Positions 38,791 through 41,869 of a stretch of 64,000 bases of DNA are shown here, in pieces. The stretch covers positions 24,886 to 88,885 of the forward strand of contig JAFMDN010000001.1 in NCBI GenBank assembly GCA_017857235.1, written 5' to 3'. Within the stretch, counting starts at the first letter, position 1; each line of letters begins with the position of its first letter. The notes beneath the pieces are model-generated. The model was not told the DNA's origin. It saw only the letters and a list, made by a program, of their open reading frames with translations, and did no database searches. Made by a program: the position numbers and the translations under genes. Source of the DNA: Methanobacteriota archaeon (GTDB taxonomy: Archaea; Thermoplasmatota; Thermoplasmata; Thermoplasmatales; GCA-001856825).

Positions 38791-38925
38791 TCATAGATTC
38801 AAATCAATTTTATTTTGTTTTTCTATTAGTTTGTGATGATTGATTTCCTTTTATCATCATATTTATCGGAACGCATCAAAAAATCAGTTTAAGAAGAAAT
38901 AGTAAATTAAGAATTTTTCAAAAAT

Positions 38926-38999
38926 AGCGGGGGGTGGATTTGAACCACCGATCTACGGGTTATGAGCCCGTCGGGATTTCCTGGCTACCCCACCCCGCT
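38926..38999 (-). tRNA. Initiator tRNA-Met (CAU)
   Basis: Reverse strand AGCGGGGTGGGGTAGCC..ACGGG-CTCATAA-CCCGT..GGTTCAAATCC..CCCCGCT; CAU anticodon; A1:U72 pair and GGG:CCC anticodon stem of initiators. Confidence 0.92.
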
Positions 39000-39173: not shown

Positions 39174-39995
39174 ATGATATTTGAAAAAAATCCTAATATT
39201 TTCATAAAATCCGTGGAAATTACTTCAAGCAGGTCACCGGGACTGAAAGATATTGAAAGTGCCAGGGAACTTATTTTAGATTACATAAATATGGCTACAA
39301 GTCCTTATAACCCAAGAGGATTGCCCTCTATCGACCCAATTTTAATTTTGCATGAATTCGGTAGAAATTCAAATGTTGAATTGGTTCCTCACATATCCCC
39401 CAGAGATGGTAACAAACTTATGATAATTTCTAGAGTTGTAACATCACTCAAAGTAGGAATAAACAGCTTTCTGGTACTAAGAGGGGATAGCATAAATCCC
39501 AGGATTGGTTCAGAACCTGTAGATGAGATTGATACAATAGGCCTTATGAAATATCTGAAGGAAAATGAATATTTGAAAGAGATTTCTAGTAAATTTGGTA
39601 TGGATATTAACATAGGTGGAATTTCTAACCCGCATAGAGGTAATGAGCAAGAAGTATTAAATGCAAAAATTGCAGCTGGATGTAGTTTTTTCATTACACA
39701 TTCAATTTATGATCCAGAAGTTTTAAAACATGATTGGATCAAGCATAGAAAATTCAAATTGATTGCTGGTTTTATTCCTATATTGAAAAAGGCTTCATTG
39801 GATTTTTACAGGGATTTGGACTTAAATATTCCAGATAACCTTCTTGAAAAAATGGAAAATTCAGCAGATTTGGAAAATTTGTTTTTCAATTTAATTGTAA
39901 ATTCAATAGATGAATTGAAAGGATACATCGATGGCATTCATTTAATGCCTATAGGTAAATATAAATTTGCTAGGAAAGTTTTGGAGGTGATTTAA
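39174..39995 (+). CDS. Methylenetetrahydrofolate reductase-like protein
   Basis: SVEITSSRSPGLKD, PHISPRD, FLVLRGDS, INIGGISNPHRGNEQEVLNAKIAAGCSFFITHSIYDPEVL. Confidence 0.75.
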   Translation: MIFEKNPNIFIKSVEITSSRSPGLKDIESARELILDYINMATSPYNPRGLPSIDPILILHEFGRNSNVELVPHISPRDGNKLMIISRVVTSLKVGINSFLVLRGDSINPRIGSEPVDEIDTIGLMKYLKENEYLKEISSKFGMDINIGGISNPHRGNEQEVLNAKIAAGCSFFITHSIYDPEVLKHDWIKHRKFKLIAGFIPILKKASLDFYRDLDLNIPDNLLEKMENSADLENLFFNLIVNSIDELKGYIDGIHLMPIGKYKFARKVLEVI

Positions 39996-39998
39996 ACG

Positions 39999-40856
39999 AT
40001 TGTTAGGAAACTTATTTATGGGATATACCCAAGAAGTGAAAGGCTAAGACTGGGAATAGGAAGATGGGAAAGGGGAATTATAGAAACGAATGATCTGATA
40101 AAAATGATTACGGAAGAAAAGGATCAATTCTACAAAATGATGCGAGTGAACAAGGTAGATTACTATACTGATCCCCTTTTCAACTGGCAGGATATTTTCA
40201 GGCCGCTGGTGGCTAGTATAGATGGTATTTCATTGGGACCATTGACAAGATACTTTGAAACCAATACTTTTTATAGAAAACCCATAGTCAATGAAATAGG
40301 TAATGTCAAAAATTCCCTGGATGTGGATGGATCTGAATATAACATTCCAGGACCTGTATATAAACCCAATGAATTTGATGGATATATGACATTCCTTCCG
40401 GGAATTGGAACTTTCTATTCATTGTCACAAGTAAATATGGATTTCAAAAAATTTCAGGATGGAATGATAGAGGTTTACAGTCAATTATTGAAAATTATGG
40501 GGACTGACAAGGTTTTCTTTTATGAAGAGGTCCCAAAGGATGCTGAAGTTTATGGTTCATTTACCCAAAGGGTTTTTTTAAGAATACCACTCAATTCAAA
40601 GAATTCTCATATTAACAGTTTGAAAGTTTATTCACTAATAACTGAAGACCCGTATTTATCGTCTAAATATTCCAATCTACCGGGGTATTTTGCGTTAGAT
40701 TCAACCAGTACAAAATTAGAAAATGATTTGCCCGGCGAACTTAAAAGATTTGTAGATGATTTCCCGGAATTACTTATTACTCATAACAATTACTTAGACT
40801 TTCTGCCCAGAAAAATTGCTGATAAGAAAGTTGAATTGCTGGGAGGTGTCGCTTAA
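39999..40856 (+). CDS. MetE N-terminal-domain protein (archaeal split methionine synthase, N-terminal half); proposed ATT start
   Basis: The frame is open upstream of ATG 40104 and encodes IVRKLIYGIYPRSERLRLGIGRWERGIIETNDLIK, the conserved 'GSYPRSEELR'-like MetE N-terminus; GGAGGTGA at 39983-39990. Confidence 0.7.
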   Translation: MVRKLIYGIYPRSERLRLGIGRWERGIIETNDLIKMITEEKDQFYKMMRVNKVDYYTDPLFNWQDIFRPLVASIDGISLGPLTRYFETNTFYRKPIVNEIGNVKNSLDVDGSEYNIPGPVYKPNEFDGYMTFLPGIGTFYSLSQVNMDFKKFQDGMIEVYSQLLKIMGTDKVFFYEEVPKDAEVYGSFTQRVFLRIPLNSKNSHINSLKVYSLITEDPYLSSKYSNLPGYFALDSTSTKLENDLPGELKRFVDDFPELLITHNNYLDFLPRKIADKKVELLGGVA

Positions 40857-41869
40857 TGAATTCGGATTATCTTTTAACTCAGGAAATAGGCTCATTTAGA
40901 AAACCAGAATATCTTTCACGAAAATTCAGATCTCTAGATGAAAATGAATTAAATGAATTGGCATCTAAGGCTACCTTCGAAACAATTGAACTGTACGAAA
41001 AAGCAGGGCTGGACAATATCGGTGTAGGGGGAGAGATGTTCAGGTGGGAGATGTATGAACACCCAATTAGGAGGCTGGATGGCATAATTGTTCATGGACC
41101 TGTAAGATCCTTCGATAACAGATATTATAACAAAGGTAGCGTTGTGAATAAACTAAAAAGGATCAAGAGCTTCCATATGGAAGAAATTCAGCTGTTGAAA
41201 AAATTAAAGAAAAAGAATATTAAAATACCCATTACTGGCCCATATACCTTAATGGATTGGTCTTTTAATGAATACTATAGAGATAGATATGAACTGGCAA
41301 TGGAATTTGGAAAAATAGTCAATCAGGAAATTAGGGAACTGAAAGAATTTTGGGGAGATGATTTATTACAGATACAGATAGATGAACCTGCTGCTACAAC
41401 ACATCCAGCTGAAATGACAACTGTTTTGGATTCCATAAATGAATCCGTTAGAGATATAAATGGCATAGAGGTTCATCTCCATGTTTGCTACAGTATTGAT
41501 TACGGTCTTCTCTTCAACATAGTTCCAGATTTAAAGGTTGATTATTACAATCTTGAATTTGCAAACAGAGATTCACTAAATCTCAATGCTGATAGGATCG
41601 GATACGCAGATGTCAAAAGATTCAAGGATGCTATGGACGTTACATCTAGAAAAATTGGACTTGGACTAGGTGTTACTGATGTACACATTGACGATATTGA
41701 AACTGTTGACCTCATAAAGAACAGAATAGAATATGCACTAAAATTCATTGAACCTGACAGACTTAGGATTAATCCTGATTGTGGTCTGAGAACGAGGTCC
41801 AGAGAAGTGGGGTACAATAAATTGAAGAATATGGTGGATGCCACAAGAGAAGTTTTAAAAAATTTATAA
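40856..41869 (+). CDS. metE: Cobalamin-independent methionine synthase C-terminal domain (MetE-like)
   Basis: EIGSFRKPEYL, DNIGVGGEMFRWEMYEH, QIDEPAATTHPAE, VHLHVCYSIDY, LRINPDCGLRTRSR Zn-site motifs. Confidence 0.88.
   Translation: MNSDYLLTQEIGSFRKPEYLSRKFRSLDENELNELASKATFETIELYEKAGLDNIGVGGEMFRWEMYEHPIRRLDGIIVHGPVRSFDNRYYNKGSVVNKLKRIKSFHMEEIQLLKKLKKKNIKIPITGPYTLMDWSFNEYYRDRYELAMEFGKIVNQEIRELKEFWGDDLLQIQIDEPAATTHPAEMTTVLDSINESVRDINGIEVHLHVCYSIDYGLLFNIVPDLKVDYYNLEFANRDSLNLNADRIGYADVKRFKDAMDVTSRKIGLGLGVTDVHIDDIETVDLIKNRIEYALKFIEPDRLRINPDCGLRTRSREVGYNKLKNMVDATREVLKNL

Follow-up and report, generated by a model that had tools for sequence, protein, structure and literature searches.

At which codon does translation of the MetE N-terminal-like gene begin? 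The gene lies between an MTHFR-like gene and the gene of the MetE core in the window, which is the whole 64-kb stretch of DNA analysed here (source assembly: 1.28 Mb in 58 contigs). The preliminary description had proposed ATT 39999 as the start codon. By direct reading, ACG ATT GTT AGG AAA CTT ATT TAT GGG begins immediately after the stop codon of the MTHFR-like gene, and the frame stays open from this junction down to the stop codon TAA at 40854-40856. The ACG at 39996, which stands in this open frame between the upstream stop and ATT 39999, was absent from the preliminary description. The same reading confirmed two of its statements, that no ATG, GTG or TTG lies in frame before 40104 and that the TTG at 40000 belongs to another frame. 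The comparison within the genus covered two genomes, the source genome and that of one sister species. In both species the MTHFR-like and MetE N-terminal-like ORFs share one frame with a single stop between them. The MetE core gene starts at an ordinary ATG (40856) that overlaps the preceding stop as TAATG, and a GGAGGTG of its own lies at 40842-40848. The comparisons reported below suggest that the MetE N-terminal-like gene is probably translated from ACG 39996, by near-cognate initiation. The features are listed in Table 1.

Table 1. Features around the MTHFR-MetE junction (window coordinates) and further candidate genes with near-cognate start codons (locus coordinates).
Feature	Position	Strand	Remarks
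Initiator tRNA-Met gene	38925-38999	-	A1-U72; GGG-CCC anticodon stem; CAT
MTHFR-like gene	39174-39995	+	PF02219, E=2.1e-11; SD within the last codons; stop TAA 39993-39995
Shine-Dalgarno (SD) GGAGGTGAT	39983-39991	+	9 nt complementary to own 16S 3′ end; same in sister species
ACG, proposed start codon	39996-39998	+	abuts TAA; 8 nt past GGAGG; start column of 25/28 homologues
ATT, start codon of the preliminary description (rival)	39999-40001	+	11 nt past GGAGG; start column of L027 and L030
MetE N-terminal-like gene	39996-40856	+	286 codons if ACG-started; NF005029, E=2.7e-68
First canonical in-frame ATG	40104-40106	+	would remove 36 conserved codons; not conserved in sister species
MetE core (catalytic domain) gene	40856-41869	+	PF01717, E=2.2e-40; NF002272, E=1.5e-143
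Deoxyhypusine synthase, ATA	L134:8121 (this genome); L095:14685 (sister)	+	12/12 matched family relatives have ATG
Permease-like gene, CTG in both species	L045:15582 (this genome); reciprocal hit in L108 (sister)	+	several relatives have TTG
Aspartokinase, CTG in this genome only	L214 (G000:C58:12537)	-	ATG in sister species

Residues 2-284 of the ATT-started form of the protein aligned with positions 3-291 of the 293 positions of profile NF005029, a full-length match. The score was 230.6 bits, under the curated equivalog cut-off of 428, and the protein is therefore termed a relative of NF005029 and not a certified member. Among solved structures, a profile search turned up no relative. The protein is homologous over essentially its full length to the split MetE of Thermoplasmata (NF005029/PRK06438), which consists of a MetE N-terminal-like protein and a MetE core. 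Several relatives share the order MetE-N, MetE-C with MTHFR in front; an adjacent MTHFR is present in the loci of seven relatives. Unlike these split-MetE relatives, which start with ATG, GTG or TTG, the gene studied here would start with ACG.

The 36 codons upstream of ATG 40104 were compared with their counterparts in the sister species. Differences at codon positions 1, 2 and 3 numbered 4, 3 and 13, respectively (third-position excess, P=0.004). Of the codon changes, 9 were synonymous and 4 non-synonymous, with a dN of 0.07 and a dS of about 1.06. This pattern indicates purifying selection on the 36 codons, and hence that they are coding. The upstream codons were also aligned with those of relatives, as the preliminary description had advised, and were found to be conserved as protein: an alignment of seven sequences, with identities down to 34%, shows eight invariant residues ahead of Met40104. 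The invariant residues and the purifying selection bear out its view that these codons encode a functional part of the enzyme. In the sister species ATT/ATA takes the place of the ATG at 40104 (LRQIISEE vs LIKMITEE), and no canonical start codon can yield the conserved N terminus. Standard gene callers would truncate the protein at 40104, as had been foreseen, since the first canonical in-frame start lies there. This short form is wrong, because the 5′ codons are coding and the ATG is absent in the sister species.

The SD GGAGGTGAT pairs perfectly, over nine bases, with the organism's own 16S 3′ end (...GGATCACCTCCT; 16S end ATCACCTCCT). It occurs once in the 64-kb window, against 0.38 copies expected. 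The motif GGAGGTGA, given before at 39983-39990, is present, but the full SD is one that extends beyond it. In both genomes of the genus, spacing was surveyed at those ATG starts whose SD match spans 6 nt or more, the distance being counted after GGAGG. The distances peaked at 7-9 nt (7 nt, 15 cases; 8 nt, 21; 9 nt, 18), with 5 cases at 11 nt, and the mode was 8 nt in each genome. ACG 39996, at 8 nt, lies exactly on this mode; the corresponding distances of ATT and GTT are 11 and 14 nt. ATT had been credited with an ideal spacing of 8 nt, but the spacing of the genus fits ACG and not ATT. The spacing had seemed ideal because it was counted from the end of GGAGGTGA and not from GGAGG.

Start codons were compared among 28 homologues, all from other genera, and all 28 start with ATG, GTG or TTG. 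In 25 of them the ACG 39996 column holds the only ATG, GTG or TTG candidate. L029 is ambiguous, with a start either on this column or one codon earlier. L027 and L030, which belong to one other genus, have ATG on the ATT 39999 column. Their SD, however, is shifted along with the start (GAGGTGTTTATATG), and for this reason they back the spacing and not the ATT column. In L019, which has the same gene order, GGAGGTTTTATAAATGAATGTTAAAACA (core GGAGGTTTTATAAATG) forms the same MTHFR junction with ATG replacing ACG. The ACG differs by one base from AUG and stands on the homologous start column. Because the homologue start column and the SD spacing of the genus both point to it, ACG 39996 is favoured over ATT. 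The earlier proposal was right in placing a non-AUG start behind a perfect SD and probably wrong in its choice of ATT, since at least 25 of the 28 homologues start on the ACG column.

The junction TAAACGATT is present in both species of the genus, and the SD is also unchanged. The sister species keeps TTGGAGGTGATTTAAACGATTGT intact, while the MetE N-terminal-like proteins of the two species are only 79% identical. Since the same junction is found despite this divergence, an independent sequencing error at ACG is very unlikely, and sequencing error at the start codon was rejected. The ATT codon is likewise conserved in the sister species.

That ATT 39999 is the start codon and ACG a 3-nt spacer after the stop is unlikely in our judgement. 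Table 11 includes ATT among its rare starts, and in E. coli the codon reached about 0.3% of ATG, ranking seventh (Hecht et al. 2017, cited in PMC10666635). It is conserved in both species, and two homologues have ATG on its column. Against these points, its distance from GGAGG lies outside the 7-9 nt peak (5 ATG starts at 11 nt vs 21 at 8 nt), the SD of the two homologues moved with their start, and 25 of the 28 homologues begin one codon earlier. ACG has points against it too. The codon, which stands one base from ATG, is not listed as a start in table 11, and it performs poorly in bacteria: one reporter tested in E. coli placed it among the codons reaching 0.1-1.5% of ATG (PMC6925171). A start at the third codon, with the GTT of the window as a decayed GTG, is very improbable. 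The sister species has GTG there, which a gene caller would select, but the codon lies 14 nt from GGAGG, none of the 28 homologues starts on its column, and the gene is under purifying selection throughout. If translation begins upstream, GTT/GTG is a mere synonymous third-position difference.

Slightly less credit still can be given to ATG 40104 as the true start with the upstream part untranslated. It is the first canonical start codon in frame, but the upstream codons are conserved as protein and the family profile begins at codon 3 of the long form; the truncated form was rejected, the codon being missing in the sister species. Equally slight is the chance that there is no separate start and that readthrough of TAA 39993-39995 yields an MTHFR-MetE fusion. 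The common frame with its single intervening stop in both species would allow it, but L019 has a real ATG past the stop, a perfect SD at ideal spacing would serve no purpose, and no recoding signal was seen. C-to-U editing of the mRNA, which would convert ACG to AUG, is the reading to which we attach the least probability, and in archaea we are aware of no such editing of mRNA. Such ACG-to-AUG start editing is known in plant chloroplasts (PMC9845219), and the ACG is kept in both species; editing would not, however, account for the starts at ATA and CTG described below for this genus.

Initiation at ACG 39996, the reading that we prefer, may proceed as follows. ACG is ATG with the middle T changed to C, and the ordinary initiator tRNA would read it as methionine, which would be the first residue of the protein. 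The perfect 9-nt SD would keep the 30S subunit with ACG in the P site; alternatively, a ribosome fresh from termination at the abutting TAA would be held in that position. The hold by the SD, together with the abutting stop, would give time for acceptance of the initiator tRNA and offset the mismatch at the middle position. In archaea AUG is selected on the small subunit by aIF1, aIF1A and aIF2 (PMC6412873, PMC7531240), and the start codons named in PMC7531240 are AUG, GUG and UUG. The distance from TAA to ACG is 0, within the stop/start proximity of termination-reinitiation coupled gene pairs, and by analogy such coupling to MTHFR translation is plausible (cf. PMC10666635). In archaeal termination-reinitiation pairs (PMC6728339, PMC10666635) stop and start adjoin and the SD lies inside the upstream gene, as here. 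As a rule the two genes of such a pair share 4 or 1 nt and the start is canonical, in contrast to the distance of 0 and the ACG of this junction. By analogy with reporter data for GUG and ACG, a reduced yield from the ACG is expected; in a haloarchaeal reporter whose leader is very short, GUG alone brings a 5-37 fold loss (PMC4574771).

The initiator tRNA-Met gene is normal, and it is identical in the sister species. An altered initiator tRNA as the cause is unsupported, given the normal anticodon and this identity. Damage to aIF1 as the cause is also unsupported, since aIF1 looks intact in an alignment judged by eye. In both species of the genus the initiator tRNA-Met gene adjoins the MTHFR-MetE operon in divergent orientation.

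Other near-cognate starts were sought in 570 reciprocal gene pairs; the sequence compared amounted to about 0.89 Mb in this genome and 1.05 Mb in that of the sister species. In a plain stop-to-stop reciprocal-hit screen, antisense ORFs overwhelmed the output, together with conserved 5′ UTRs followed by a later canonical start. Filtering by codon-position bias and SD spacing left few cases, three of which passed the homologue start-column test. In these three further genes (Table 1) the near-cognate codon stands exactly on the start column of the relatives, in a screen of two genomes of one genus and with homologue sets chosen where the genus looked odd. The SD context of deoxyhypusine synthase is alike in relatives (GGAGGAATTCAGATG) and in the genus (GGAGGGATTAAAATA). 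The start region of the permease-like gene, whose naming rests on a weak match to a sulfate-permease model, reads GGTGACAAGTTG in relatives and GGTGACATCCTG in the genus, with CTG behind GGTGAC. The SD spacing of aspartokinase is 7 nt in both species, and a TTG two codons downstream is a possible fallback start. Because the three codon types differ from AUG at three positions, they favour a general acceptance of near-cognate codons downstream of an SD over a changed anticodon or RNA editing. We suggest, tentatively and as something we would not yet expect to hold, that start-codon selection may be relaxed in this genus. Several genes, including deoxyhypusine synthase, would have swapped AUG (or UUG) for ACG, AUA or CUG, deviating at different positions and offset by SD pairing, despite an initiator tRNA and aIF1 that look normal.

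Non-AUG starts as such are known. A survey of start-codon switches found that, of 61,358 ancestral AUG starts, 2 had become CUG and 1 AUU (PMC5622118). Those rare prokaryotic starts are, like ACG, one-base neighbours of AUG, and non-AUG starts in the survey came with stronger SD motifs, which resembles the 9-nt SD here. It reports switches of AUG to GUG, UUG, CUG and AUU only and leaves ACG unmentioned, unlike the start proposed here. In eukaryotic and viral ACG initiation, for which Sendai virus P/C is cited in PMC9845219, the same codon is read as Met via the initiator tRNA. Archaea have start selection of the eIF1/eIF1A/eIF2 type in common with eukaryotes (PMC6412873), but placement here would be by SD pairing, whereas eukaryotic ACG initiation is by scanning. 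No example of an ACG start in archaea was found in the literature searched, which included few subscription papers. As far as that search goes, no archaeal metabolic gene with a conserved ACG start has been described.

If the proposed start is correct, ACG, which gene callers ignore, would be a natural archaeal start codon kept across the divergence of two species. The fidelity of archaeal start-codon selection, with the parts played by aIF1, aIF2 and SD strength, would become testable on natural substrates. A small share of the genes in genomes of this kind (here four near-cognate candidates in 570 reciprocal pairs) would carry wrongly annotated 5′ ends, central ones such as deoxyhypusine synthase among them.
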